Shown one piece after another: positions 38,404 to 56,739 of a stretch of 64,000 nucleotides of DNA. Every line of letters starts with the position of its first letter. Position 1 is the first letter of the stretch. The stretch comes from Isoetes taiwanensis. Taxonomy: Eukaryota > Streptophyta > Lycopodiopsida > Isoetales > Isoetaceae. The position numbers and the translations under genes were made by a program. The notes beneath the pieces are model-generated. The model was not told the DNA's origin, made no database searches, and was given only the letters and a program-made list of their open reading frames with translations. The stretch is taken from assembly GCA_021234155.1 (NCBI GenBank), contig JAJEKV010000036.1:10305426-10369425 (forward strand), in the 5' to 3' direction.

Positions 38404-38663
38404 ATCAGGGATGGCGAAAGATATTATTCGACAAGCTGATATTCTAAACAACACCTCGCTACAGACTATACAAAATGCACAGTTCCTTTACCAAATTGGA
38501 ATATTTACCGCAATTCCAATGATTGTGTGTTTCATACTAGAGGAGGGACTGTTAAAGGTAAACACTTCCTTGCTTTATGGAATATTTGGAAGCATAGAAA
38601 TAGATGTGTACATGGGGGACATAATCCTTCTCCTTTGTGGATTAAGTTGCAAGTTATATATGA
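38404..38663 (+). pseudogene. LINE ORF2 C-terminal fragment interrupted by the large transposon
   Basis: The plus-strand frame reads GKHFLALWNIWKHRNRC then HGGHNPSPLWIKLQVIY. This matches the Trp-rich segment after zf-RVT in LINEs (compare SAWIIWSIWKRRNLLIF at 27.4 kb). The frame is cut at 38,663 by the transposon end. If 38,664-56,613 and one ATGA are removed, it continues as DIELTAIKNLDSHIDNN to a stop at about 56,667. That identifies the pre-insertion site. Confidence 0.65.
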
Positions 38664-38689
38664 GGGTGAAAGCATGTTGTAGTGGAACA
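38664..38689 (+). repeat. Left terminal inverted repeat
   Basis: It begins GGGTGAAAGCATG at 38,664 and is preceded by ATGA. It is followed by subterminal TTAGCACCACAATTTTGG, AAGTGTGGTGGGA and TTTGTAGTGGGA. Confidence 0.85.
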
Positions 38690-38919
38690 AAAACGTGCAT
38701 TTTAGCACCACAATTTTGGGTGCTAAGTGTGGTGGGATAAACCGAATTTGTAGTGGGAGAGGCAGTTATTTTTTCAAATATACACATGATTACTTATTCA
38801 AAATTTTGTCTTTTCTTAATTACATGATGCCTGTTCTCATTTTCCCACAAAAACTCTGATCCCGCTCCCTAAATCCGGCAAGACCATTTCTGATTTCTGG
38901 CAAGAAGATCGATCACGAA

Positions 38920-40925
38920 ATGGCTTTGATCATACCGAACTTGAATGCCACGGGATACACCTACAAGGAAATGTACAGGCAAGAAAAGCATCACGCCACA
39001 CAAGAAGAAATCGAGTCTGTTTGGGGGCCGAAAGTATCAGGGAAATCCGCTTACAGGTGGGTTGCATTGTAGATTCGGGGATGCCCATGATTCTCTGTTG
39101 TTTAAAATATTGTTTTGTTTCATCATGCAGGTTGAAGAATCTGAGCAAGGAGAGGTATAATGAATATATGTCCCTTTACAGGAAAATCTCACAAAGGACG
39201 TGTGCCTGGGGAGGCATGGCCTCACAGACTATGGCTGTTGCGTATTACCTTCACACAAAAGGTAAAGAAATAAACTGGTTGAGTTTCTGGCAACAGTTAA
39301 GAGAAAAAGGGTCTGAAGCCTCTCCGTTCCAACGTAAGAGGAAGCATGCAAGCATTTCAAATAGTGAGGAAGCAGAGCAAAATGCCACAGATGATGCTTC
39401 CTCTCTTGAAATGACTAGGCCACAATTCAAGCCTCCTCAAGCTGTAAGAAGAATCTCGGGGAAAATCACTGAAAAAATAGGTACTTTTCAACCCTCTTCT
39501 TCTGGAACCACCATATGATGCAATTTAATATTGGAACTGTTATTTTCCAGAGAGGTCTAGCAAGCTTGAACAATCAGGTACACCACTTCTTCTTCATTTG
39601 GGTGTGTTGTAAGATATGTGTAGGAAATTTGTGCTACTAGTTTCGAGTTGTGGTGGATAATTTCAGTTCAAAGTAGTATGTAGCTCCAAATGTGTTACAG
39701 GGCAGTCATATGGTGCCAATTATATGTTAATAATATAGTTTATAACATATGTAGTGTCACATATAGTACCAAACGTGGCACCTTATCTGAATAGTGAATT
39801 GGCTTCCATATGTTTCTATACTTAGTGTCATATGTGATGTTAGATATGGCGATACTTGTGAATGGTGGATTGTCTGCCATATGTGGTGGCAACTGCTGCG
39901 CTAAATATTGCACCACGCTAGGTGCCACATATGGGGTGGTGGATGCCTGCCGGATGTGGTGCTTTCTGTGCATTGTGGTGCCACATGTGGTGTCGAATGT
40001 GGCACCACTATGGTTCCACATTTTGCACCACATGTGGTGTCTTTGACGCCATTTGTGGTGCGAAGTAATAGATGTCTGCCATATGTGGTGCTTTGGGTGC
40101 ATTGTGGTGTCATATGTGGTGTGGCATATGGTGCCACATGCCACACCACATGTGGTGCCTATGACGTCATTTGTGGTGTAGTTTGTCATGATGGAATTTG
40201 TGGTGTGTAAAGTGGTGCATGTTGTGTCATGTGGTACTAACCTTGGACTACTTTCCAGTTGAATTCAACAGGACACTGGGAGAATGGATCAACTCTACAA
40301 GATCAGAAGTGATTCAGTGTAAGGCAAGGTTGCAAACTTGTGATCAAATGAAGGTTCAGCACCTTGAGTTCCAGACCGAGAAGATGAATAAAGATTTAAA
40401 AAAATGGGAAGGAATGATTAAGGATAAACCAAGTCGTGCAGACGGTATTCGGGCTATATGCCAAGATACAGAGGCTGAGCTCAAGGAACTATTACCACAC
40501 CTTGAGCAGACAAAAATCGAGGAGCTTAATCTGCTGTCAGCCAGGGAAGCAGACACAACAGCATTGAAAGTGCTGGAACCAAGGTTAGAGAGGTTTCTGT
40601 CTTGCAAGGATCGTCTTCCTTTATTTGTCTTGGATCCACTACTTCCAGACCTTGATAAGGCTGAAGATTATGGTAGTGGCTGTCCATTCTGTGGCAAGAT
40701 CCTCCAGTGGATGGGAAAACCACTACCAAGTTTGATTGCTGAATGCAGTCACCAATACCATCTTCCATGTCTACTCAGCCTCTTGAGGTACTTCATAACA
40801 AAATTCCTGAAGTGCTTAGTATAATTGTATTCTCATTGAGAAATTTGTGTTCACTTTGCAGGATTTGTAATCACTGTTGCATTGAGAATTGCTGTCATGA
40901 ATTTTCTACAGCATGCAAGCCTTAG
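38920..40925 (+). CDS. Coiled-coil / RING-like zinc protein of the large transposon (5' part of a longer gene)
   Basis: There are four exons: 38,920-39,056, 39,131-39,480, 40,259-40,787 and 40,862-40,925. All introns are GT-AG with consistent phases, giving 359 aa to a TAG. The N-terminal part includes KERYNEYMSLYRKISQRTCA and HTKGKEINWLSFWQQL. A basic linker (FQRKRKHAS) could act in nuclear import. Residues about 160-290 are highly charged and probably coiled-coil (EFQTEKMNKDLKKWEGMIKD). The C-terminus is a Cys/His cluster: CPFCGK, then AECSHQYHLPCL, then ICNHCCIENCCHEF. The spacing resembles a modified RING finger, so an E3-like role is possible but unproven. The final TAG sits exactly at a strong donor (TAG|GTATGAGT). 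Reading it as an original CAG makes this one gene with the FCP1-like part downstream. Confidence 0.6.
39760..40230 (+). repeat. TGTGGTG-rich array in the second intron
   Basis: Within the intron 39,481-40,258 the motif TGTGGTG (also ATGTGGTGC, TGCCACATGTGGTG and CCACACCACATGTGGTGC) recurs many times with irregular spacing. The transcribed strand orientation is mostly TGTGGTG. The array does not encode protein. The same motif occurs in the subterminal regions, at 42,440-42,600, at 50,450-50,495 and, complemented, in the transposase intron. Confidence 0.8.
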
Positions 40926-41048
40926 GTATGAGTAGGGAGGATCAAAAGCAACTTCAAACTACTGAGGCACTTAAAGATGAGCGCCCTTGTCATATTGAGA
41001 TGCCAAAGCATAGTTACAATCAATTGTGATTCAATTCCAGGTTTGCAG

Positions 41049-42227
41049 AGCATGGTGCCGTTTACTAATTCAGGCTTAACTGTTTGTACTGGTGGCAATG
41101 ACTTTGTGAGTCCATATAGCACACCAAAAAGGGACTTATTTTCTACCCTCAAAGGTAATCAAGTCTTGTTTGATGCAATTGGGATATGTAGCTTACTTCT
41201 TCATCCCTACTTTGTAGATATAGAGGTACAATGTGATCAGCTAGGGGGACAAGACACTCACACCCCTTCAAAAGCATTAGACACAGATAGAAACTCGGGC
41301 AAATCAGAAGATGCATCAGGTTATAGGAACTCGGACAAATTAGTAGATGTCAACAAATCAGTAGGTGCATCAAGTCAAGCTCCAGCTGGACAACAATCTG
41401 CCAAATCAGCAGATGCATTAAGTCATGCTCCACACCAATTTGCCAAATCAGCAGATGCATCAAGTTATGATCTGAACAAATCGATATGTGAATCTAAGTC
41501 ACAAGGTAACTTCCAACCTTTTGTGCCTGTCTTCTTTTTAATTTGGCCCATATAGTTACAGAATCTGTTCAATTTTTGCAGCTGGAAGTGTTTCAGAGAA
41601 AAATCAACAGCAGAACTCCAAGCAAAAGACACCTCCAAGACATGCTGAAGCAGAAGTTTCCAGCCCTGCACCAAGACATGCTGAAGCAGAAGTTTCCAGC
41701 CCTGCACCAACTCTGTCCATGTAGAAGACTACAAGGTTAAGCCCAATCCTGCTTGTTTTTTACTACAATGGAGTTTTGGGTAGAAGCTATGACAAGAGTC
41801 AAAAAATACCCACTGTCAAAGAAGATGGTGTTACCATGGTCACACTTAACAGATCCAAGTTTGCAATAACTAGACCAGGCTGGGCCGAGTTCTTAGATTG
41901 GTGCAGTCAGAATTTTCATATAGCACTTTGGTCCAGCCTGCAGGCTCAAAACATGAGAATGATAGTTAAGGGAGCATTGATGAAATACAAGGACAAATTC
42001 CAGTTCATATGGACTCAGGATCAGTGTACAAGCACAAATTTATATAACAGTGGAAAGCCAATTTTGGTATTACCCATCCAATATGAGGCCTGATATGTTT
42101 GTTGCAGGGTGTACCAATTTCTAGTGGGGAGCTGTTGGACACGCGCAGAATGATGATTGATGTTGTGAAGCACAGTTGCTCTAGTAATGAAGCTGAGGTT
42201 GACAGATCAATAGATCTTTATTTGTAA
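41049..42227 (+). pseudogene. FCP1/NIF-like phosphatase domain carried by the transposon, catalytic Asp replaced
   Basis: Exons 41,049-41,154, 41,218-41,505, 41,582-42,066 and 42,108-42,227 join in phase with each other and with the upstream RING-like gene. The low-complexity first half has repeated SAKSADA/APHQFAKSADASS units and a 36-bp tandem repeat at 41,638-41,709 (RHAEAEVSSPAP twice). The second half is an FCP1-homology domain: RPGWAEFLDWCSQNFHIALW, SSLQAQN, then FQFIWTQDQCTS. The motif 1 region reads LLVFYYNGVLG at 41,749-41,781. FCP1-type enzymes have Asp where the first Tyr (TAC, 41,761-41,763) stands, so catalysis is unlikely. One in-frame TAG lies at 41,722-41,724. FCP1 enzymes dephosphorylate the RNA polymerase II tail; binding without catalysis is possible here. 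This was probably a captured host domain. Confidence 0.65.
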
Positions 42228-42439
42228 TCTATTGTTTGTATTATTGTAACCGAAGAGGTTATTCTTGTAACCTATTCTTTTATTGACACTCTAATGTACA
42301 TTGTTGTATACTATTGTATACAATAGATTTTTCTGGCTGACCAGAGCAACACTCTGGTGGAGTTCAAATCTCCAGAAGAAATTGATGTATTCAAAGATTC
42401 AAAGATGTATTCAAAGAGACATCTAGATGAAAATGACAA

Positions 42440-42600
42440 TGTGGTGATACATGTAGTGATGCAAATGGTACATGTGGTGAATCATGTGGTGACATGTGGT
42501 AAATGTGGCGAAGCATGTGGTGAAAACTGTGGTAAAAACTGTGGTGATGCAAATGGTACATGTGGTGAATCATGTGGTGACATGTGGTGGGTGGCTAGGC
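42440..42600 (+). repeat. TGTGGTG repeat cluster with internal 87-bp duplication
   Basis: GATGCAAATGGTACATGTGG followed by TGAATCATGTGGTGACATGT occurs at about 42,459 and again at about 42,546. TGTGGTG and close variants fill the interval. The cluster lies in the 3' flank of the plus-strand gene, roughly 200 bp after its stop. Confidence 0.8.
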
Positions 42601-42800
42601 TCCCGAGGTGTGAAATCGTATACATGCAAACATCCCTTTCCTCTTCTGCCTCATTCCCAAAAATCGTATGCATGCAAACATCCCTTTTATTCCCAAAATT
42701 CTGCCCTGCAGCTTCATTCCGTCCATCTTCCTCTTCCCTCCGTCCATTTCGTCCTTCCGTCCATTTCGTTCATTCCGCCCATTTCTTATCTAGCTCGATC

Positions 42801-43097
42801 ATGGCCAGGTTCAAGACTACAGTGCGCAGGAATACTATCCCGGCCATTGTGCCTGCTCCTTCGCCACTAGCATGGTCAGAATCCGTGTCTTCGTCTGGAG
42901 GCCACCCGGTTACAGTGGTGGCCAAGTTCACAACACCAGAGGTGGAAAAGCTCATCATGGAGGCACAGGCTGTCTGTTCGATGCGGGTGCTCGAGTGGGT
43001 CGATCGAGATTACCCCGACGAGGAGCGACTGCTAGAAATGAAGATGTATGCCATGGAGGACGACCTCCATATAGAGCTGAGGATGGCCCCCGCCTGA
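42801..43097 (+). CDS. Small hypothetical protein inside the transposon
   Basis: This 98-codon frame starts MARFKTTVRRN and has a central HPVTVVAKFTTPEVEKLIME and an acidic end (DRDYPDEERLLEMKMYAMED). It follows a Pro/Ser-rich, TCC-rich leader (42,690-42,790) that looks like 5' UTR. The arrangement is compatible with an independent small gene. No family was recognised. The next 250 bp hold T-rich DNA up to the nested retroelement. Confidence 0.35.
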   Translation: MARFKTTVRRNTIPAIVPAPSPLAWSESVSSSGGHPVTVVAKFTTPEVEKLIMEAQAVCSMRVLEWVDRDYPDEERLLEMKMYAMEDDLHIELRMAPA

Positions 43098-43861
43098 AGA
43101 TCAAGCCTGCTCCAGCCCTGATTAGTTTAGATTTGTTGTTTTAATCCCTGTTTTCAAATGCTTGCAATAGTCCTTGTGACTATTTTTTGTAAAGCTTTTT
43201 CGTTAATGACAGAAATCCTCTTCTCTACAGCTGTGTTGACTATTTTTTTTTGCTTTAAATGTTCTCTTAGTTTCCACTGTTCTTTTAGTTAACTGAACTA
43301 TTTCTATCCTTTTTTGTACAGATATAAGAAACATGTTTGGTATTTAGTTTGCAACTCAAGTTTTTGGTATTTCTAGAGTCTAGTTGCACACACAAACAAC
43401 ACCAAGCTGATAAACCCTCAAGCTGACCAGCTTTGTTGGGCGAACAAGCATAGGGAAACAACATGGGGAACCCAAACATAGTGTCCAACAAGATGAACAA
43501 ACTCCCATAGCATCCAAAAGAATTAAGCGAGGTGCTCCCAGACTAAGGCGCGCAAAGGAACTCCAAGGGCCGCTACCAGCAACCTGCAAAAAGGGGACAA
43601 ACAACTCCACATGACCCATGTTGTGCATGAGAGCACACCAAAACAAGCAGTCACTCCTGCCCATACTAGGGCCACCGCAAAAGACACGAGACCACCACCA
43701 AGGGAAAAAAGGAACACGAATCCAGCACGAGGGCTATCACACTACAGCGGGCACGAGGGTTACCATATGCTCAGACCAGCCCACGGGCCACACCTAAAGA
43801 GAACTCGACAGTGGAGGAGAAATAGACATCAGTACTACTAGAAGAGGGGTGGGGAGGGTGG

Positions 43862-44053
43862 GAAGAGGAGGCGACAATGGGAGAGACGCTTAAAGACGGC
43901 TGATGGGGAATCCCAAGGAGAGCAGGACATAAATACACGAAGGGGAGAGGACACGTCACCTAGACTCAAGAAGCGGATTTATCTGCTTATCTCAAAACGC
44001 AGATAAATCGTACTTCTAGAGTCTAGTTGCACACACAAACAACACCAAGCTGA
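43862..44053 (-). repeat. Internal split-repeat junction (A2-B1) of the retroelement
   Basis: A2 (43,862-44,015) ends AGATAAATCGTACTT, identical to the outer end A1 at 49,971-49,985. It passes directly into B1 (CTAGAGTCTAGTTGCACACA from 44,016), identical to B2 at 43,373. The junction matches the product of joining the two element ends. It is the expected recombination site for the element's tyrosine recombinase. Confidence 0.85.
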
Positions 44054-44100
44054 AAAAAGAGGCAGGAGGAAGAGACGTCGCATACCAGGCAAGAGATGTG

Positions 44101-45095
44101 TTACTTGAACTCGGAGGATAGGCGGCAGATAGCGCGGGCATCTTCGCGACCCAGGCCCAGAGAGCGGGAGACTAAAAGTTGCTGGTGGAGGGAGGGATTG
44201 ACATATCCATCCTTGGCGGTCTCGGAACGCCAACGACCATGGGCCTTAAAAAGGCGGTCTGGTACATCGAAGGCAGCTGCTGGGGTGGCACCGCCACGCC
44301 GTCCGGAATGGGTACCAAAGGAGGAAGGGTCTTCACCAATGGCGACAAGGCAATGCTTAAACCAAGAGCGCAGTGTGGAATAAGAGACCGGCTTCTTGCG
44401 GATAGACACACTGTGAGGAGAGACACGGACACCACGAAACAAGTGCCCCCCAGAAGGACCATCTATCCGACTAAAATCCCCCAAAGCAATAAGACGTTCC
44501 AAGAGACCCACGGGGCAGTAGAAACCACCAAGGCGTGCAATGGACACCCAAGACCCCACACCATGCTGGTCGGTTTTGGAAGACTTAATGAAAAGGCTAG
44601 CGTGGGACGGAAGAATGAGAATCTCCTCCCAACGCAAGGCAAGCAGCTCGGCACTACGCAAAAATGCAACAAAGGACAAGACCAAGGCACAACATTTCAT
44701 TACCTCGGGCAGGGTCGCAGCAGGGGACGCAAACTTATCCATGACACGCCTAACCAAGTGGGGCAACAAAGGCTTCTTCTTTGCCGCCCGGACATCCAAG
44801 GAACCCTTTGCAGAATCCCGGACCAGGTCAACAAGGGGTGGTCAGTGGGCTTGCGAAATCCGGCCAAGGCATGATGGAAAGCAATCGCAGCAATAGACAT
44901 CTGAAACACAGCGAGTGAAGGGGAGGAGGCTAAAAGACGGGTAAGGAATAAGCAGACGGAGAGGGGTTCAGCAGGTAGGGGGACAAGGTGTTTAGAAAGG
45001 CACCAATCTTTGAACTCCGACCATGGACGTGCATAAGACTTTAAGGTGTTAACAGAACGGGACCCAACTAGTTGCTCTTGTAAGGCCTCTTTCAA
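44101..45095 (-). pseudogene. Tyrosine recombinase of the retroelement
   Basis: Two overlapping minus-strand frames join at about 44,835 through a one-base shift beside a C run. The N-terminal core-binding part reads SRSVNTLKSYARPWSEFKDW, CLFLTRLLAS and GFRKPTDHPL. The catalytic part has Arg I in FLRSAELLAL, His-x-x-Arg in GTHSGRRGGAT (about 44,290-44,312), GRWRSETAKDG in place of the H/W box, and the nucleophile Tyr in DGYVNPS (about 44,200). All R-H-R-Y residues are present. Its role is to integrate circular cDNA without an integrase. About 44,100 to the A2-B1 junction is short 3' sequence. It is active only if the indel is an artefact. Confidence 0.8.
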
Positions 45096-45289
45096 AAAAC
45101 AAGTTCAGCATCCCCATCACCAAGCGAGCTCCAAAAATTAGACGAGAAAACATCTGAAAAAGACAACAAACTCACCGTTAGAAGCCACCAGACGAAGTGC
45201 AATCAAAGGACTTGAAGGCTTGCGACATGGAAGGGTTGACCGCGTTCCGGGTCGTAAGAAATGTCCACCAGATGGAAAATACAAGCTAT

Positions 45290-47147
45290 CTACAAATGCA
45301 GGGTGGGCCACCAAGGAGCGGACTCCCAATGAAAAATGACGAAAGTAGCGTCCGCAGCGCAAGCAAGAGCAAACTTGAAGGCCTTAAAGACTAAAGCAGG
45401 CGGGGGAAAGCAATAATTGTTGTAGCCATGCCAGGTTTGAGCAAAAGCATCTGGAGGAGAGGACAAACAAGGTGACAAATGCCAGCAATTAAAGTTTGGT
45501 AAGCGGTGGTTATCGAAGTTCGCAAAACGGTCCCAATCATGAGGACCCCAAGCAAACTCGATAAGGCGAAAGGCGATGTCTGTCAAACTATAATCATCGT
45601 ACTCCTCAAGCTTGGAAAGGTAATCTGCCCATTGGTTCAGGGTACGGGGAATCCAAGCTGGTTTCAGGACAAGCTGGTGTTTTAAGCACGAGGAAAAAAT
45701 CTTGACGCACAAGAGATGCAGGTCGGGGACCCGAGAGCCACCGCGAGAAAGGATAAAGAATGCGTTCAAATTATCGCCATATGCTATGATAGAACGCCCT
45801 TGAAGGGAAGCGGCATGACGTTCCAGAAAATGAAAAAGGCAAGACAGCTCGCGGAAGGTTGAAGACATAGATTGTTCAAGAGGGGTAAACTTCGCTGCGA
45901 GACTGGCAAGATCACGAGATTCAGGCACCCAAGCGCCCCAGCCAGAGCCACTAGCATCATAAAAGAGGGAGACCACGGGGGAAAAAGACTCCCAAATATG
46001 GGCAGAGTTAAGTAGGTCAAACCAATCGCCCCAAGCCTTGACCTCGGCCATGGCTAAGTGGGATAGTGGCACCACCTGCTCCCAAGAGGTAATGGCAGAC
46101 AGGGCAGCAAATAGGTGGAAGGAGAGGATCTTGCAAAACGGTCCAAAGACTAGACTGCAGGAGGTGATCATTCCCAAGAAAGAGGCGAGTTTGCGAGCTT
46201 TGACCAGATGGTTGTCGCAAAGATTGCGGGCAAGGTCCAAGAACTTAGCACGACGTGAGGGAGCGATGGAGAGAAGACCAGATTGAGCATTAACAACGAA
46301 TCCTAAGAACTTGGCCTCGTGAGAAGGTAGCAGCTGACATTTGTGGAGGGCAACCACGAAACCGGCCGACTCAAAATCTGCAAGCACTAGTTGCTGGTGG
46401 TCGAGAAAGGAGGAGGGTCTAGAAGCGAAGAAGAAATCGTCGACATAGGGAATGCAACGCAAACTCATGAACCGCCATCGCTTGACGAGCTGACGCATGA
46501 CTTTGGTAAACACAAAGCAGGCAGTCGAGAGGCCAAAAGGCAAAGAAGTGAACATGTAAAAGGAGCCCTCAAAGGCGAACCCCAAATACGACCAAAACTG
46601 GGGATTAATGTCAATGTGATGATAACCCGAATGCAAGTCTAAAGTAAAAAGATGGTCACCCGGTTGGATGGTCAAGGCAATGTTGCTGATAGTCTCATAA
46701 CAAAAGGGGCTTTGAGCCAGAAACGTATTTAGATGGCGCAAGTCAAGAATGAGACGAAGCTTGTTGTTGGCCTTGGGCACCACACCCAGGGGCGATCAGA
46801 AAAAGGCTTGTGATCAGAACTAATAGCAGACCCAGCCGAGATCAAGTCCTTTATAGCAGTGCGGACAAAGGCAGCCTGTTGTAAAGCAGACCGATGGTTT
46901 GAGCTAGACCAAGGGTGGGGGGAGGAGAAGAATGCCAAGGCAGAGAGTAACCATTCCGTATCCAATCCAACACCATAGCAGAAGTACAAAAGGATTGCCA
47001 AAAGTCAAAGCAGTTCCGCAGGCGATGCCGGAGAAAGGTAGAAGGAGGGGGAGGGGGACCCTGAAATTCTGAAAAATTAACAAAGACAAAGTGATTACCG
47101 TTAGACAAGAAATCGACCACACTACTAAGGAACGAGCATGGGGACAA
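45290..47147 (-). pseudogene. Reverse transcriptase / RNase H of the retroelement
   Basis: The main frame is 46,783-45,290 (497 codons). RT blocks are PKANNKLRLILDLRHLN, FTLDLHSGYHHIDINPQFW, FGLSTACFVFTKVMR and the catalytic IPYVDDFFFASRPSS (about 46,430-46,455). RNase H follows (LFYDASGSGWGAWV; STFRELSCLFHFLE; DNLNAF; LNQWADYLSK). The N-terminal piece lies in other frames at 47,147-46,790 (CFDFWQSFCTSAMVLDWIRN; AAFVRTAIKDLISAGS) and rejoins after single-base shifts near a C run at about 46,920 and at about 46,792 (expected DSPLGVVPKAN). All catalytic Asp residues are visible. The order RT, RNase H, YR is typical of DIRS-order elements. Confidence 0.85.
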
Positions 47148-47429
47148 GAAATGGAACTAAGAACCGTAACACAAAGAACTACCCACATAATGCAAAAAAA
47201 TAGCATGCGAACCAAGGGAAACCTAGATGAAAAATAAAGGAGGACCACCAACTAAAGGGCAAAGCCAACCTACGACCCACCAAGCATAACGACTAAAATG
47301 AGAATATGAGGTGTTGGAATGCTAGAATCTATTGTGGAAAACACATAGCGTCAAAGAATACAAACATAGGCGGCAAACACCATACCAAAATGAAAGGGAG
47401 TCAAATGTCAAACGACCGGGAACTAAACA

Positions 47430-47685
47430 ATACCAAAAGAATTGAAAGGGGGACACGAAACACCTAATGCAACTCAACACCAAATGAATTGAAAAGGGGA
47501 CACGAAACACCTAAAGCAACTCAACACCAAATGAATTGAAAAGGGGACACGAAACACCTAATGCAACTTAACACGGCTAGGTCACCCCCTAAACATGCCA
47601 CCCAAATGCAAAAATGAGGTTCAAAAGTCAACAAAACATAACCCAATGCAAAAATGAGGTTCAAAAGTCAACAAAACATAAACAC
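47430..47685. repeat. Two short tandem arrays between gag and RT
   Basis: About three copies of a 47-bp unit (AATTGAAAAGGGGACACGAA, then ACACCTAATGCAACTCAACA) run over 47,434-47,575. Two copies of a 40-bp unit (GCAAAAATGAGGTTCAAAAG, then TCAACAAAACATAA) run over 47,607-47,682. They lie between the gag and RT frames of the nested retroelement. Confidence 0.85.
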
Positions 47686-47733
47686 ACTGGTAACGTTAAC
47701 TTCAAACTAGCAACCAAAAAACATTATGTCAAC

Positions 47734-48483
47734 TCAAGGGTTAGCTACAGATGGGCCCGTGCTGGGAAAACCAGGCTTATAAAACAAAGCATTGGTTGGG
47801 TTAAAATTTGGTAGTTTGAGCTGTTGGGGGCTAGGGGATAATAAAAGCCTGGCAGGGCAAGCAGCCGCACGATGATCTGGTCTCTGACAAATAAAACACA
47901 ACAAAGGATTAGCAAAGGATCTCTTCTTGGAGTTTTTGGGGTCCCATTCCATGGCCAACTTCCGAGCAGCGCGAAGCCTCTTATCATCATCGCTAAGTTG
48001 GACTAGATCGCTCAATTCATAGCAATCAGCAACCTTCGCCCCTTCTCGGTCCCTAATCAACACAAGTTGCTTCCTATTCCGTAACAAAGTATTACCTTTA
48101 TCGATCAGCTGCTTGACTGGGGGCTCCAAAGCCTTCTGAAGCCGGAGCTTGCTTTCCAAATCTGAAAACACATCTTCCACCTCATTCAAGAAATCAAATT
48201 GCTTCATGTTGCCCTCGAACTTCAAGACAGGTGTGCGACTCTTCTTGATCTTACGCTCGACATCCTCCTGTAGCGCCGAAATCTTAGCCTCCAAATATGC
48301 CAAATAATCTGTCTTTGCATTGGCCAGCCGAACTTCCATAGCTTTTGCCCATGTCGGGGCTTCAGCAAGATCCGAGGCAGCGGGAGCAGCTGGAGCAGCT
48401 GGGGCAGGAGGAGCATTCGATGGGCCGGCCTCATCACGACTCTCCATAGGTCGCTTACCAAGCCTAGTGCTACCCCGAGTCAT
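47734..48483 (-). CDS. Gag-like nucleocapsid protein of the retroelement
   Basis: This intact 249-codon frame starts MTRGSTRLGKRPMES. An Ala/Pro-rich segment (APPAPAAPAAPAAS) is followed by a predicted helical region (LANAKTDYLAYLEAKISALQ, EDVERKIKK), a charged middle (LRAARKLAMEWDPKNSKKRS) and one CCHC zinc knuckle, CFICQRPDHRAAAC, with the exact C-x2-C-x4-H-x4-C spacing. It is the first frame on the coding strand, about 1.35 kb inside A1. Gag proteins of this order package the element RNA; that is family knowledge rather than shown here. Confidence 0.8.
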   Translation of the reverse strand: MTRGSTRLGKRPMESRDEAGPSNAPPAPAAPAAPAASDLAEAPTWAKAMEVRLANAKTDYLAYLEAKISALQEDVERKIKKSRTPVLKFEGNMKQFDFLNEVEDVFSDLESKLRLQKALEPPVKQLIDKGNTLLRNRKQLVLIRDREGAKVADCYELSDLVQLSDDDKRLRAARKLAMEWDPKNSKKRSFANPLLCFICQRPDHRAAACPARLLLSPSPQQLKLPNFNPTNALFYKPGFPSTGPSVANP

Positions 48484-50439
48484 CTATCATGCCAAAGGTC
48501 AGTAAACAACAGACAACACTAAACAGACATAACCTACAGAATAGGCAGAGAAACTACCACCGCAACTACAGTTGTGGAGACAGACCAGCTACAAGGCCAA
48601 ATCACAACTAAACATAGCAGGAAGGGGAGGATGGGTCAGACAGAAACGGTGAGAAACAAACCCAAGAGCATAAACGAGACAACAAAATGTCGAAACATGG
48701 AGCAGAAGAAACGGAGGGTAACAACACAGAGGGAGTAATCAGGAGACCGAGAAAAGGGGGAGGGGCTCCAAATCGCACAGAGGAGTGAAGCACCAGGACA
48801 GACCCGGGGTGCAGACCGGCAGACTCAAGGGGGGGTTGGGGAAAACCAAGGAAAGAGCGGGGCAAGGTGAGGCTCAGACTGCTCCAAGACAAACACTGCA
48901 ACTGTAAACAAGAGCAACAAAACAACCAACTCACAAACAACCAACTTACAAATCGAATTGCATCCCAAACAAGCCTAAAGGCACCGGGCAAGAGCAGAGC
49001 CTCTGCAGGGACGCCCAACATCCCGCCGCTCCCAGCTAGCTACTACCGGACATGCACTGATTGATCGACTGCAGAGGAGTGGTTAGAAATAACACGCTGC
49101 AAGCCCGACACAGCAAATTTGCAAGAGGTCAGTCGCCCAGGGCCAAGAACTGCCCCGGATACCAAACACCTACAGCAAAATCCTGCCAGGGGGATCCCGC
49201 TCAGCTCATGGGTCCGCCCAAGTGCAGCCAGGAAAAAAGGCCGGGTCCAAACTGTGCAGAGGGGGGAGAAAACCTGCAGGCCAGCCCCGGAATCGACCAA
49301 CCAGACCACCCAGGCCAGCGAAAGCCTGCCAAACCCGGTCCAATCCGTCCCAATCAGAAGCAAATACAAGAGTGACACTCCGCGAGGCTGAAGAAGGCTA
49401 TTCGACAGAGCAAAATTGGAAACCAAGGAGACGAAGTGCAGCAAACTAAAAGTGGGCAACGCAGCAAAGCAAAACAGAGGGGACCTCATCCACCCACCAG
49501 AAATATGAGCAACCAAAACCCACTGAAGCAAATCCGCTAGATCCTCTCTGGCCCGAAGAACGGCAAGCAGAGCCTAAGGGTAGAGGGTTCAAGCCAAACA
49601 CCGGAAGGACCAGCGAGACTCACAGCAAAGCACACATCACGAGCCGCATCTAAGAACGGACCAAACTCCCCTGAACCATCCAAAGTCCCAGCAGCTGGGG
49701 AGGGGCCACAGAAAGGAGATCTCCAACAAGAGGGAGCTCTATCCAGCCGGGCACACCCAGAAACCTTGCAAAAGAACACGACGTACCTGGGAAGGAGAGC
49801 TGTCGTCACGAACTGGGAGGGGGACAAGCACCAAGAGGAGGCGACGATGGGAGAGACGCTCAAAGACGGCTGCTGGGGAATCCCAAGGAGAGCAGGACAT
49901 AAATACACGAAGGGGAGAGGACACGTCACCTAGACTCAAGAAGCGGATTTATCTGCTTATCTCAAAACGCAGATAAATCGTACTTACTTTGCAACTCAAG
50001 TTAATGACAATTTTTGTCATTCATTATAAAATGCAAAGTACAAAGCAAAGTATGCCTTTACTGAAATAGCATACCATTGAAACAAACATTAAAGCCAATA
50101 AGGAATTTCAAGGTGCAGAATTTATGATCTGCACACTAACAAAATATGGTAACCAGCAGCAAATAGGAAAATATAAGGTGGGTGGCTCGGGTTCAAAAGA
50201 AATAGAGTTCAGAAGAAACTGAAAAGAAAAACACAGAATTCCCTGAAGCAATAGTTAGTGGCCTTGCAAGAATCTTTGCACAAAGCAGAGCTTAATGAAT
50301 TTTGGCCTCATATCGATTCAGGGACCTAATTTGGGATCCATATATTGCTGTCACCAAAATCAGTCAAGATACTGTCAGGAATCTGAGAGCCATTCCATTT
50401 TCTGACCGGGTCAAAAAATGGTCAATGCCCCTGGCTGAT

Positions 50440-50500
50440 TATGGTGAAATCTGTGGTGAAAGCTGTAAACTGTGGTGAAGCTGTGGTGATGCAAACGTTG
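50440..50500 (-). repeat. TGTGGTG cluster
   Basis: Four spaced copies of TGTGGTGAA or a close form lie in about 60 bp. They continue the motif theme of the large transposon on the right side of the nested retroelement. Confidence 0.7.
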
Positions 50501-50687
50501 TTTTTATATTTCAAATAATAAAAATACATATGGAAATCTACCATACCCAGTAGAATAGTTCATACTTCTTATGAAATGAAGTATGCAGAAAAATCAGGGA
50601 AAACTATAACCTTGAGCTTCTAGTATTATCAAAATGCATTAGAGATATAATAATAGCTGTTTTGAAGAGGTTAATGATGACATACAG

Positions 50688-51260
50688 TTATTGGGCCTCA
50701 ATCAGATCCTGCATTGTGAGATCTGTAACTCTTCTTCTTCCAAGTATGTTCAAGATGAGATCAAGTTTTTCTGCTGAATAGTTGGTGAAATCCAGGAACA
50801 CTAAAACACGAGCTTCTCGTTTCTGCTCCCACTTATGATACAAATTCATAAAGTATTGTGTCAGGTTGTTGTGTCTCCATGCATCTGGCCTGTTGAGCAC
50901 TTTTTTAATGGCTAAAGCATGGATCATTTCCTGCTTTAGTTGGATGAACATATCCTCTTGCTCACTCGGGGAGAGAGCTGCGAACTCATCATCAGAATCA
51001 TACGCCACCCCCAGATCCCTGTCAGCTGCACCAACTCTGTTAAGTCTCCTGACTGCATCTGTGTAAACAACATCATTAGTAATATAGAAATCACATTCTA
51101 CTACAAAGAAAGGCAACTGCCTATCACTGCCTTGGCTTCTAATTCTTTAAGCCTATCAGGAATTAACCTATGTTTTAAGCCTAGAATACCTCGAAATTCA
51201 TGGATCCTCCGCTTCTCTAATATCCGCCTCTGTTCCTGGTTTATTTGCTCCAGTATAGGT
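50688..51260 (-). pseudogene. Accessory minus-strand coding region of the transposon, unrecognised
   Basis: The frame 51,116-50,688 reads DFYITNDVVYTDAVRRLNRV, then YDSDDEFAALSPSEQEDMF, NRPDAWRHNNLTQYFMNLYH, KWEQKREARVLVFLDFTNYS and IEAQ at its end. Upstream, in a frame one base off, a charged segment (EQINQEQRRILEKRRIHEFR, then RLIPDRLKELEAKAVIG) reads into it, so the original protein was longer. The join is near 51,118. No known domain was recognised. Its composition (helical, charged, one hydrophobic core strand VLVFLDF) suggests a folded protein. It lies 3' of the transposase on the same strand and may be a second transposon protein or its continuation. Confidence 0.45.
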
Positions 51261-51668
51261 CATACCAGATGCGACTGCATTTGAACTGGCGAAATTGTTT
51301 CTGCTCATGTTCTCCTTCTGTCTTCTTCCGCCATAGCTGGATTGGGATAAGCCAATGGCTGCATGCAAAACTAGATTTAGGGTTTTCGTCCAATGCTTCC
51401 TGCACAGCTAGCTTTTGAATGATTGACCTTGCATTTGATGTGACAGATTTTCAATGGTGGGTTTCATCATGTGTTTCTCTGTCCCATTCTGTTCATCCTT
51501 AATGTAATTTTTCTGTGTGTCACTTTCACCATGTCTATTAAAAAGTGAAGATTGAAGAGTGAACCATATAAAATGATTACATAAAGTTACATTTCAGATT
51601 ACAAGCGAGGATTTGTATTAAACATTTCAGATTACATGAGAAACAAAACTTTTTATATACACTTGCTT

Positions 51669-54600
51669 TCATTCCTGTGCTTCTATAAAAAAGAGATCTG
51701 GGTCCAACTCCTCCTCGTCCTCTTCTATGATCACCAGATCAGTGGCCACCGGGTCAGCTTGCCAGCCTATTTCATCCCATTCTGGAGGGAAAGCAAAAAA
51801 CCATAATGGTGCAGTGTTACCAAACAGAATAGCAGCTTCTCCATGTGCATCCTGCTTGGCCTTGACCTTGGCATCACCTTTGACCGAGGCTTCTTTCTAT
51901 AGTAAATGCCATCCACAACGGTTTCACCTCTCATAAACCAGTTTCCGTTCTGCTTGAAGTCATTTTCAACTTCAAATTTTGGCTTGGTGCATAGCAACAT
52001 CCAAAATACAGAATCCTCCTCATTCCCTTTAGGTGCAGCAACTGCAAAGTTGTCTCCTTCTCTAAGTGCTTCTGCAAGTACATTTGCCAAGGTTGAGTAT
52101 AGTGGCCTGGTAGACTTGCAGGTCTCTTCCACATCTGCATGAACATTGGAGGATGGTTCAACGACTACAAGGTTCCATTTGTTCTCACACATGTCCCATT
52201 TTCCATCTAAACAATTGCTGCAAAAACATGATAGCTTTCTGGTTTGTAGCTGTGTTGGATTTCCTGTGCTCAGGTATCGAAATTAAAAAATGTCTTAATA
52301 AGTAAAATGCCGTCTTCCGTTTACTAATATCGGATATTATAATATGCAACCGGAAAATCCTGTTTGTTACAAGAATTACCGGATTAATGCCTTCAAATAA
52401 GAACTTTAAGCGGCCATACGAAAAAAAACTATAACAGATAAGTTTGCCTTTAAAGCCCTATTTTTTAGTCAATATAATAGGCCATATAACATATACACAA
52501 AACAGATCAAAATATCCTCTTCAAACAGAAGATGGTAAGTGGCCTCCTTTGGATATCATCAAATTCCCCATTCAAATGAAAGGATTCAACAAGTTAATAT
52601 GATAAGTTTTTTCCTTCGAAAACCAACATATCCTTCTTTCCCTAGATAAGCAAAAACCAACATACCATTCTTCACCTAGATAAGCTTTTCACTTGAAAAA
52701 CATCTTGCAAACAATTTAACATAGATAATTTCTCTTTTCTGCATAACAGATAAGTCATTACATTCAGCTTAGGGATCATCCAAAGCCTTCCTTGTTGCTA
52801 CTTTCTTGAGTACATCAAGAACATTACTACCAAGAATACCTGTACTTTTCCTTTTCTTTGTTCCTCTTGCCATGTCTTGCACAGCCTACGCACACAAATT
52901 AAAACTCAGAATTAGGAGGCATTGAGGAACACATTATGTACGATAAGTAAATCTAAACTGAGCAAGAAATTTAAGTATAAAGAAGACTTATTTATCAAAG
53001 TTACGTACAACCAAAGTAACTCAGACATTGCTACTTACTAGAATGATGGAAGGAGTTGTCCAATGATAGAGAAAGTCAGATCACGAAATAAATAATGGCA
53101 TGTCCTTCTTCTTGTTAAAACTGATTTGAAGAAGATAGCTGAACTGCTATTGCCTTCTACAGCAAAAAATCACAGAAATAAACCTCGATTCCATAAGTTT
53201 AAATCGAGAGCTGCAGAGCCATGGCCTCAAATCCGCAGTTCCATTCTTGCAGGGTCTGCTGGACGACGAGATATGATGCTTGGGAAGTTCAGACCAGAGC
53301 AGAGCCAGCGGGAGGAGAGGAGGAGATGCGCCATGATGCCAGCGTTTTGCTTCTCCGCCGTCATTGCTTGAATGAAGATGAAAAGGACCGAAATGACAAG
53401 CCCTAAATTGAAAACGAGGGAAAGGAAAAAACAAAATAGAGGAAGAAACGGGGGACAAGTGAAATATCGCAAAATGGAAAAATAGTATATTATATCCTAT
53501 AAAAAAAATCCGCCACCTCAAATTTCAAACGGATAAATGCTGGTATATGTGGCAAGGAAAAGGCCACTTGCCTTCCATATATTTTTTTGGCCGGAACTAG
53601 GTTCCGGCTTTAATATTATTAATCGGTTTTTAACCAAATAAACCGGATTTTTAGGGGAGGAACCCCCTTAATTTCGAACATGCCTGTGCTGAATCCATGG
53701 ACTGAATGAATTTGCCTGGTTTCTGGAATTGTCTCTGCACCCCAAGCCTTTTTCCTGTTGATATCCTCAGGTTTTATTTCCCAGGAGTATCTCCGAACTT
53801 TTCTTCCATTTTCAGTCCACTCAGATGTACCACATTGAAATTGTTTCTCTGCAATTTTCACCACATCATGGGCATTATCTAGTTTAATGTCAGGATGTTT
53901 AAGCTGTAGACCTCGTATCCATCTTTTCAATTCTGCTGCCTTCCCATCATGTTCACCTTTTCCATGGTTTGATCCAAAGAAGTTCCACATCATGTTGACC
54001 TCTCTCAGTATCACAACCGTACCTTCCAACAAAATAAAATGGTCCGCTTTGCTTTGAATTGTGATGCAAAGACCATCCGAAAAAAATACATAGTGCTGTT
54101 TGGGGACATTGCCTTTCTTCTTTAAGTACTCAAAATGTTTCATAAAACAACGTTGAACAAAAAGTGTGTCATGTTCCCTATCATCCGACACATAGTAGTG
54201 TGTTTCCTTTTTAATGGTGTGCATGCGGGATCAACCCGATAGGTTATTTGAACAAATATAGTTATCTCGGTTGTTGACCCAAAGACATGGACTGAACTTC
54301 ATTCTCGCTCCTTAAAAGTATAATTCTCTGCCCGAAGTCAACCACGGATAGGTAAGCATCTCCGTGCAAGTTATCAAGGAGTTCTTTGTCTTGGCCTTTG
54401 CCACTTATATCCTAAGTTGTGTAAAGGAAATTTTGGAAGCTTCTCCAACATTTTATTCACCGATGGAAGACTTGCGGTTTCATTGTATTGGTGAACGAGC
54501 TTAGACTTCTTGCGCCATCTCTCGAATTCGGTTTTTCATAGTCTAGGTATTCCCACTTCACCATGCCACTATCACTAGATTGTTCATGTGGGCAGATAGG

Positions 54601-56507
54601 GAACTTCTTAATCCCGCACTCTTTACACTCACCCAGAATGCATTCCCTCTTATGGTAAGGTTGGAAGCTAGTTTTCTCACATAAAATTCCCTGCCACAGA
54701 CTTCTCGTGCTACTTATTTTGTATTCGGGCCACTGCATTCACCAATATATATGTCCGACCTGCAAAGTTGACAGTCGCATTTACCGCAGACTTTTTGGGT
54801 ACTTAGTTCTCATACTATTGAAGCCATCTATTAGCATCTGCATTCTAACATGGTATATACAGCAGCAACTATTGAAGTCCTTTAATTTTATAACAAACCA
54901 TAGTTTCAGCTTTTCAAACATCCTCTGTTTGATCATAACACTAGGATGTTCCGTCTTGAATTTCCTGAACAATTGCAACTACAAGGAAGATAACAAGGTG
55001 ATCAGCATATATTACATAATTTATTGCACACTACGTTTTCCACCACACTAGGCACCACATAGAATATATTACAACATTTATTAACACCACGTTATTCACC
55101 ACACTAGGCACCACATAGCATATATTACAGACATTCATCTTACACCTCATTATTCACCACACTAGGCACCACAAAGCATATATTACATAATTTATTGTAC
55201 ACCTTATTTTTCACCACACTAGGCACCACATAGCATATATTACAACATTTATTTTACACCATATTTTTCACCACACTAAGCACCACATAGCATATATTAC
55301 AGCATTTATTTTACACTATGTTATTCACCACACTAGGCACCACAAAGCATATATTTACAGCATTTATTTTACACCATATTTTTCACCACACTAGGCACCA
55401 CATAGCATATATTACAACATGTATTTTACACCATGTTATTCACCACACTCGGCAACACAAAGCATATATTTACATCATTTATTTTACACCACGTGCCTCA
55501 CCACACTGGGCGCCACATATCATATATCACAGCATTAATAGGCACCACATACCACAAGCAATGACTAACCACACCAACCACATATCACAAGCAATCACTG
55601 ACCACATACCACATTAACAATAAAGAATGTGGTGAAGATGAAGAAATGAAATAACCTGTGATTCTTCCAGATAGTGAGTGGCATGATCTTGTCTTACATT
55701 TGGAGAGACCCTACTGTTTTCAGTCCAAAATTGCTGCACAAGTTCTATGACAGAATTGGGAATTGCATCTGCTCTTCTAACTCTTTTGTACAAAACCCAT
55801 TTCCCCCCTTTGCAATCTATCTCTTCCCTCTTCAATTTTGCTTTGGTAAGATTCCTAGGATGAACACCCAGCAGTTTACCAAAACCCCGAGCACTGACAG
55901 GATTAGCATTTTCGGTAATGCTTCCTCTTACGGCCATAGAAAGGCAACTACTCTTGGCTGCTAAACTGTCATTGCTATTAGACTTCTTCACAAGTTGAAT
56001 GGAAGCCCTAAGGTTGCTGACCACAATGCTCTTGGCTTGCTAATCTTTCAGCTCTTCACCAAGTACGCTGTCCATTGTGTCATCTTCCAGGAAATCTCGT
56101 AAAACCTCTTTCTTATCACTGTCAGCCAAGCCATTAGTGGTGCTATGAAATGAAGATAATAATTTCAATACCATCCGACGCCTAGTAGAGGCCGTTCTGG
56201 TGGATCCTCCCTCTGCTGATGCAATTTTTGCTAATTCTTCTTTGGCTTCCCTTTTTCTTTTCCTTTGGCGTCTTTTATGATCACGTTCTTGTTCTGGAGT
56301 TCTCTTTCTCACACCTTTGCTCCGGTTTGAGATTTTAGGCAGATTTGCTTCCAAATTAAATGATTCAAAGTATGAACCGGATTGATCCACAACCGGATTA
56401 AGCGCCATAGCCGTGTGCTTCAGGAAAGGCGCGGGTGGGTTTAGGAATCGGTTAGGTGGAAATTGGAATGGGATGGGTGGTTTAGGAATCGGGTTGTTGC
56501 AGTACAA
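51669..56507 (-). pseudogene. DDE-like transposase of the large transposon (multi-exon, decayed)
   Basis: Exons on the minus strand: 56,507 to 55,656 (basic N-terminus RKRTPEQERDHKRRQRKRKR; then RADAIPNSVIELVQQFWTEN), 54,978 to about 54,780 (LFRKFKTEHPSVMIKQRMFE, then FNSCCCIYHVRMQM), about 54,740 to 53,650, and about 52,274 to 51,669. The third holds the Cys-rich YHKRECILGECKECGIKKFP, then YLSVVDFGQR (Asp at 54,339), SDDREHDTLF, VFFSDG (Asp at 54,077) and NFFGSNHGKGEHDGKAAELK. The last has CFCSNCLDGKWDMCEN and an acidic tail. DFG and SDG are candidate catalytic Asp residues; the third is unclear. Defects: TAG at 56,042, a missing A at 54,532-54,536, and further one-base shifts near 54,250-54,285, about 54,220 and about 51,893. 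Related metazoan proteins share the SDG and HGKG-DG pattern (recollection, not searched). Confidence 0.6.
54979..55655 (-). repeat. 57-58 bp minisatellite filling a transposase intron
   Basis: About nine copies of a unit starting CACCACACTAGGCACCACAT, then AGCATATATTACAACATTTA and TTTTACACCATGTTATT, run from about 55,041 to 55,560. They fill the intron bounded by the CAG|GT donor at 55,656/55,655 and the TAG acceptor at 54,979. On the sense (minus) strand the repeated motif is TGTGGTG, as in the other gene of the element. Copies differ by a few substitutions and one-base indels. Confidence 0.85.
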
Positions 56508-56587
56508 GAAATGATTGAATCCGGGCAGTTATGCACTAGGCGCCAAACAAACATTTAAAATCGCACCACAAATTTGATCACCTAGGG

Positions 56588-56613
56588 TGTTCCACTACAC
56601 CATGCTTTCACCC
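56588..56613 (-). repeat. Right terminal inverted repeat
   Basis: On the minus strand it reads GGGTGAAAGCATGGTGTAGT and then GGAACA. It is followed outside by ATGA at 56,614. Just inside lie TTTGTGGTGCGATTTT and GGCGCCTAGTGC. Confidence 0.85.
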
Positions 56614-56739
56614 ATGATATTGAACTCACAGCTATTAAGAACTTGGATTCTCACATTGATAACAACTGACATTCAATAGGAAATTATTCTGGCTATTATG
56701 GTTTCTTTAAACTTTTCTGTCATCAACCATTGACTAACA

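Follow-up and report, generated by a model that had tools for sequence, protein, structure and literature searches.

A locus of Isoetes taiwanensis that very probably represents a large class II transposon in decay, with a DDE/D-like transposase and integral FCP1 and Ulp1-like genes

Cut-and-paste DNA transposons as a rule manage with one or two genes. In KDZ transposons a gene for a chromatin-related enzyme (TET/JBP) has been retained over long times, and Academ elements show a 3- to 4-bp duplication together with XPG-like nuclease or helicase parts. Several papers describe further systems: Ginger1 elements duplicate CCGG or CCGT at the target site, have termini of the type TGTNR and encode a Gypsy-integrase-like transposase that in some of them bears a C-terminal Ulp1 domain (PMC2836005); the plant Mutator-like elements with Ulp1 include KIU/Kaonashi and Vandal-VANC, and VANC directs the hypomethylation of related elements (PMC13317346); RAG1 and RAG2 are a transposase and an accessory gene derived from one transposon (PMC4411706); and typical Kolobok elements have a TTAA duplication (PMC9587614). 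Here we describe an element of the lycophyte Isoetes taiwanensis that we regard as a new multi-gene variant of the DDE/D cut-and-paste transposons, to which we give no superfamily name. It occupies positions 38664-56613 of a 64,000-nucleotide stretch of DNA (GenBank assembly GCA_021234155.1, contig JAJEKV010000036.1, forward-strand positions 10,305,426 to 10,369,425), hereafter called the window, and is very probably what remains, in decayed form, of a large class II transposon combining a DDE/D-like transposase with FCP1 and Ulp1-like genes as integral parts.

The element is delimited by 26-bp terminal inverted repeats, GGGTGAAAGCATGTTGTAGTGGAACA on the left (38664-38689, + strand) and GGGTGAAAGCATGGTGTAGTGGAACA on the right (56588-56613, - strand), which are equal at 25 of 26 positions, and an ATGA duplicate lies immediately outside each of them (38660-38663 and 56614-56617). 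The original prediction, made from the letters of the stretch alone, had located both the ends and the duplication correctly. Within the window the terminal 13-mer occurs twice exactly, with two further sites at two mismatches. A search of the whole genome (1.658 Gb, 1110 contigs) with the 26-mer at up to three mismatches gave 430 + 418 = 848 matches for the window's own family, called family A, and the end patterns of two diverged families gave 733 (family B) and 138 (family C), the reversed-pattern controls yielding none in each case (0 + 0 for family A). This makes a total of ~1,700 termini across the three families, each of which has its own related ends, GGGT-N-AAAGCA or close. Among the matches listed, at least 22 facing end pairs of family A and at least 19 of family B lie within 25 kb. 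The prediction depended on other copies that share both the ends and the genes, and such copies are present.

Eleven complete family A copies were analysed, ten of them fetched and the eleventh being the window copy. Their 4-bp flanks were identical in 10 out of 11 cases and agreed in 3 of 4 letters in the remaining one (C674), compared with 4 identical 4-mers out of 616 at 56 shifted offsets; identical 5-mers were found in 0/11. The duplications read GATA, AAAT, CATA, CAAG, CAAC, GATT, TTAC, ATTG, GTTG and ATGA. The target of the window insertion (flanks 38560-38663 and 56614-56720) is itself a repeat, so that empty sites were available for comparison: the joined flanks used as query led to 451 first-look candidates, and out of the 40 that were scored 38 cross the junction and two are the window's own flanks. 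Three of these paralogous empty sites were fetched and aligned and each has a single ATGA, a 12-bp difference in the alignment lying 18 bp to the right of the junction and thus away from it. With a target duplication of fixed length, a clean empty site and matching inverted ends in many copies, the element is a class II DNA transposon, moving as DNA.

Between the ends we found the two convergent multi-exon genes that had been predicted, both of them broken in the window copy. The first, on the - strand, is the transposase gene, which in the window contains stops and frame shifts. Its exon 1 (55656-56408, with one stop in the window) encodes the basic N-terminal part, and its exon 2 is split into a 5' part (53683-54978) with the frame-shifted motif DFAENY, the SDG motif and SNHGKGEHDG, and a 3' part (51872-52270) with the Cys cluster CFCSNCLDGKWDMCEN, which is present in the window copy as well as in the consensus. 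This consensus, built from 13 rows (the window and 12 core copies from the best 40 of 1082 candidates), is 889 aa long with 264 aa in exon 1 and 625 aa in exon 2, the splice junction CAG/GTTATT...TTGCAG/TTGCAA being set from the reading frames and therefore putative. Besides the basic N-terminal part and stretches rich in Cys, it contains LSVVDFAENY, SDGAASQFKA, SNHGKGEHDG and the CFCSNCLDGKWDMCEN cluster. The DFG motif of the original prediction proved to be a frame-shift artefact, as the family consensus reads DFAENY, while its HGKG-x2-DG motif corresponds to HGKGEHDG. A protein search of the genome revealed transposase relatives at ~93%, 75%, 60-66% and 52-58% identity (87 matches; best 70 of 13148 candidates scored), and exon 2 of the two diverged families is 51-64% identical. 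The motifs persist from family to family. Neither the SDG Asp nor the GEHDG Glu varies in A2 (10 rows) or A3 (16 rows); the GEHDG Asp does not vary in A2 and hardly does in A3, and the DFAEN Asp is conserved apart from replacements or shifts in single copies. An AlphaFold2 (AF2) model of the transposase core reached moderate confidence (predicted local distance difference test (pLDDT) 63, predicted template modelling score (pTM) 0.69). A second look, as distinct from a search, gave Z values of 7.1 for IstA, 7.0 for the STLV intasome, 5.8 for Hermes, 5.7 for the P element and 5.4 for HIV integrase; superfamilies other than those compared may fit too. The model would fit an RNase H-type recombinase and aligns best, if inconclusively, with DDE transposases and integrases, and we infer that the two-exon protein is a DDE/D-like transposase of the RNase H type.

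The second gene, on the + strand (38920-42093), is a broken RING-like/FCP1 gene whose parts were delimited from the reading frames: the N-terminal exons probably lie within 38920-39480, a coiled-coil and RING-like exon at 40262-40790, a middle exon at 41043-41510 and the truncated NIF/FCP1 domain within 41725-42093. The NIF domain is recognized by Pfam in the window (E 3.6e-7) and above the cut-off of 21.8 bits in the consensus of family A (1.1e-12, 48.4 bits) and family B (1.1e-16, 61.4 bits), and the nearest solved structure by sequence to the family B protein is UBLCP1 (0.0019). Motif I of this domain reads LLVLDFNGVLG or close (D-x-N) in 3/3 family B loci, LLVFYYNGVLG or close (Y-x-N) in 12 of the 13 readable family A copies, C67 having D and C118 and C938 not being readable, and LLIFELDGVLL (E-x-D) at one family C locus (L041, near 2189 in its own orientation). 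The nucleophilic Asp is thus lost in family A, where Tyr takes its place, and in the single family C copy read. The catalytic D-x-D of an active FCP1/NIF phosphatase is complete in none of the three families, so that phosphatase activity is doubtful in all of them. The Cys/His spacing of the RING-like cluster fits RING-H2 by eye.

Next to this gene lies a Ulp1-like protease gene, which the original prediction overlooked because it is mostly missing in the window: only a C-terminal remnant (42110-42228, + strand) is left, ~1.2 kb directly upstream being absent relative to C501 and C1053, with the junction near 42065. The gene is fuller in C501, in family B and in a 14-row family A consensus. 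In the three-copy family B consensus the FCP1 gene stops and is followed by a gene with the motifs WFND, HHW, HFDS and SCGPAVC, which is recognized as Peptidase_C48 by Pfam (1.8e-9, 38.2 bits, cut-off 20.7), has SENP5 as its nearest solved structure by sequence (4.8e-5) and keeps the His, Asp and Cys, L037 reading CDP at the Cys. By tblastn the family A protease resembles its family B counterpart (E 1e-7 to 1e-9), and its His is replaced in the consensus.

To describe the layout of these genes we entered the first 70 of the 87 transposase rows and 84 of the 152 FCP1 matches and counted pairs less than 13 kb apart. Out of 21 neighbouring transposase-FCP1 pairs, 20 are convergent. Six of the convergent pairs belong to family B, with a gap of 0.9-1.4 kb (two on C1028 and one each on C1048, C1081, C1029 and C985). 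Among six diverged family B and C elements, RING-like and FCP1 matches were each found in five and at least one of the two in all six. The Ulp1-like gene is present in 3/3 family B elements, and none was seen in the family C elements searched. Between families the FCP1 domain differs at about half of its residues. In readable copies, the proportions of nonsynonymous (pN) and synonymous (pS) differences between families A and B were 0.32-0.34 and 0.82-0.86 for the FCP1 domain (6/6 comparisons) and 0.13-0.14 and 0.95-0.97 for the transposase core (2/2 comparisons); for the transposase core against family C they were 0.24 and 0.86-0.95 (4/4 comparisons). The ratio of nonsynonymous to synonymous rates (dN/dS) of FCP1 within family B was 0.28-0.37 (three pairs). 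As silent sites are saturated while the protein is conserved, selection must have acted on the protein for a long time, and since the layout is shared across families this selection probably took place within the element. The FCP1 gene, together with the protease gene in families A and B, therefore looks like an ancient integral gene, and what had been taken for cargo resembles a working part of the element more than luggage picked up by chance. A zinc-finger/FCP1-like gene does lie within the unit, as originally stated, and its description as host-like cargo does not agree with its presence in three diverged families, its convergent position in 20/21 pairs and its conservation at the protein level.

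Several observations weigh against a transposon with such integral genes. For the transposase, a Pfam search with the 889-aa consensus gave no family up to E 10, where weak matches may be lost to the filters, and ten natural rows hit no transposase model up to E 1, their best match being EPCAM-Trop-2_C (0.0035, in 2/10). The best matches of two PDB sequence searches stood at 0.11 and at 0.011, the latter an ABC transporter. Foldseek with the core model against PDB and BFVD had no hit at E <= 0.001, and the best 50 of 745 rows contained no transposase; the Z values of the core model, all below 8 and hence under the level counted as safe, may reflect a shared arrangement only, Argonaute-type chains scoring alike; and for exon 2 as a whole AF2 gave no usable model (pLDDT 33.7). 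For the accessory genes, the RING-like cluster reached at best zf-rbx1 at E 0.0025 and 18.4 bits, under the Pfam cut-off of 31, and the family A protease had no Pfam match. C1025 is the sole same-strand pair among the 21, FCP1 went unmatched in L042 and the RING-like part in L040. FCP1 dN/dS was 0.72 in one family A pair, near no constraint after insertion, and no intact copy of the element was shown. This last ratio, together with the loss of one catalytic residue in both family A accessory proteins, would suit a passive capture of host genes, in the manner of Pack-type elements, as the source of FCP1 and the Ulp1-like gene, which would then have no role in mobility; gene capture is frequent in plant transposons and includes Ulp1, according to PMC13317346. 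We consider this highly improbable in view of the convergent position beside the transposase in 20/21 pairs, in families that differ at about half of their FCP1 residues, with silent change saturated and amino-acid change limited. A one-off capture of a host gene is rejected on account of the occurrence of FCP1 in three diverged families, the convergent layout and the protein conservation. That the interval is instead an accidental patchwork of unrelated repeats with coincidental ends is suggested at first sight by the two younger elements nested in the window copy; the chance of this is practically nil, since at least 22 facing pairs within 25 kb exist among the family A termini listed and colinear complete copies carry 4-bp duplications, and the window insertion has empty sites.

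The name of the element is a separate matter from the presence of its integral genes. It comes close to an even chance, though still short of it, that we are dealing with a lycophyte branch of Sola (Sola1, 2 or 3) to which accessory genes have been added, a possibility that is compatible with the integral-gene transposon described above and would bring no novelty at the superfamily level. Sola elements have 4-bp duplications like those found here and they share great length with the present element; Pfam gives no convincing transposase match, however, and the RING-like/FCP1 and Ulp1-like genes found here are not known as parts of Sola. Certain animal transposase-like proteins presumably have motifs that resemble DFAENY, SDG-x-x-x-QFK and SHGKG-x-x-DG. 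In PMC10294476, bivalve Sola1 is among the longest curated DDE/D elements (mean 5445 bp). A new superfamily, unrelated at their defining level to the ~20 named ones, seems rather unlikely to us. It would agree with the three families having ends of their own and with the finding of no relative in Pfam or PDB and no confirmed transposase relative in viral, prokaryotic and phage collections, but these collections were not built to contain the rarer eukaryotic transposase superfamilies, so that missing matches say little.

Academ fits in duplication length, and no XPG-like nuclease or helicase Pfam domain was detected in the consensus transposase. KDZ elements have transposase motifs and a duplication length unlike those here. 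The RAG1-RAG2 type (Transib lineage) likewise consists of a transposase and an accessory gene from one transposon, with a convergent layout, but the proteins and the ends are others and the duplication is 5 bp. KIU/Kaonashi and Vandal-VANC are also plant DNA transposons in which an accessory gene encodes a Ulp1 domain; the present element differs from them by its 4-bp duplications (9-11 bp in Mutator), by the lack of a MULE Pfam match and by its additional FCP1 gene. Ginger1 shares 4-bp duplications and, in some elements, Ulp1, and is rejected because the ends here begin with GGGT and not TGTNR and the duplications are varied and not CCGG/CCGT; Ulp1 is here, moreover, a separate gene. Typical Kolobok is rejected since TTAA is absent from the family A duplications (the KolobokP lineage, with various duplications of 3-5 bp, was left out of this comparison). 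Neither the element nor any transposon bearing FCP1/NIF was found described in the titles and beginnings of abstracts of the open-licence papers that the searches listed, and neither "DNA transposon" nor "Sola" is used in the main text of the Isoetes taiwanensis paper PMC8566536 or of PMC10541799.

In the mechanism that we propose, a two-exon RNase H-type DDE/D transposase would bind the 26-bp ends (GGGT...ACCC), with candidate catalytic residues in DFAEN (Asp), SDG (Asp) and HGKGEHDG (Glu or Asp), would excise the element and insert it at a 4-bp staggered cut, and would serve deleted copies in trans. The RING-like/FCP1 gene stands tail to tail with the transposase gene and the Ulp1-like protease gene adjoins it, the FCP1 gene (and the protease gene in families A and B) having presumably accompanied the transposase since before the families split. 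The likeliest role, though we rate it somewhat below an even chance, is that the accessory proteins act on host factors controlled by SUMO, ubiquitin or phosphorylation and thereby protect, target or de-silence the element. The literature offers precedents in the Ulp1 domains of other transposons (PMC2836005, PMC13317346) and in the anti-silencing gene VANC (PMC13317346). In family A the FCP1 and protease proteins may, judging from their altered residues, serve as binding proteins that do not cut; on another reading, the source copy of this family was already decaying. The broadest version, a DDE/D lineage of superfamily level whose mobility needs a built-in RING-like/FCP1 and SUMO-protease-like kit, with dead binding proteins in the window's family, appears unlikely. 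A phosphatase-like gene, joined by a SUMO-protease-like gene in two families, has been kept beside the transposase while about half of the FCP1 residues changed, and such long retention suggests that the element needs control over the modification of host proteins when it moves or is silenced. Repeat annotation in lycophytes would gain an element to look for, and the study of how accessory genes such as RAG2 and VANC become parts of transposons would gain a case for comparison.

We also analyzed the structure of individual copies. The ten fetched family A copies measure 9.06-10.84 kb from end to end and most of them have no transposase exon 2; C1053 is longer (~14.0 kb) and its right end was not recognised. 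Eight out of the ten (L001-L006 and L009-L018) share one common alignment edge, left by a deletion, have no exon 2 match and contain an extra stretch as in C501. The single shared deletion edge indicates that a subfamily lacking exon 2 multiplied, and as it did so without a transposase of its own it was presumably mobilised in trans. Three family B and C elements measure 9.5-11.2 kb from end to end: C1048 of family B (9503 bp, TCTT duplicate, end match 22/26) and C1033 and C1066 of family C (9771 bp with a TTTT duplicate and an end match of 20/26, and 11192 bp with an end match of 24/26 and no duplication, respectively). For the other two of the five elements completed in these families, C1036 and C1028, no pair of ends was found. 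Part of the 138 family C pattern matches, reading ...GTGGGTCA, may represent a further family, and the variant GGGTCCAAGCACAATATAGTGGGTCA, which recurs among the one-mismatch family C end matches, may mark one as well.

The window copy had been taken for an autonomous-type element. It is in fact dead, with broken reading frames, ~1.2 kb absent at each of two places relative to C1053 (near 42065 and again at 51863-51872) and nested insertions. Three small open reading frames (ORFs) accompany the main genes. The MAR ORF (98 aa, MARFKTT..., 42801-43097, + strand) was matched in 3/3 family C loci at 38-41% identity, there on the transposase strand. ORF-Y (...DAVRRLNRVGAADRDLG...MQDLIEAQ, 50688-51146, - strand) has no convincing Pfam family, and ORF-X (205 aa in the consensus) survives in the window as a remnant at 51690-51863 on the - strand, the rest being missing; tblastn matched neither of these two family A ORFs in any of the six loci searched from families B and C.

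Out of the 17.95 kb of the window element, ~8 kb are younger nested DNA that had escaped the original prediction. The larger insert, at 43373-49979 on the - strand (limits to ~6 bp), is not part of the transposon proper, and copy C1064 is continuous at this place. We call it a DIRS-like retroelement because it has a reverse transcriptase (Pfam 9e-18), a gag-like and a tyrosine-recombinase-like ORF, both recognized by eye, together with split direct repeats (153 and 48 nt). The second insert, of 1.4 kb (52271-53682), lies within transposase exon 2 with AGCACAGG flanking it on each side and is absent from 12/12 fetched core copies and from C33; the length of this duplicate and the similar ends suggest that it may be hAT-like. 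Both genes also contain minisatellite-like introns (55030-55630 and 39700-40240) that are rich in TGTGGTGCC-type words.

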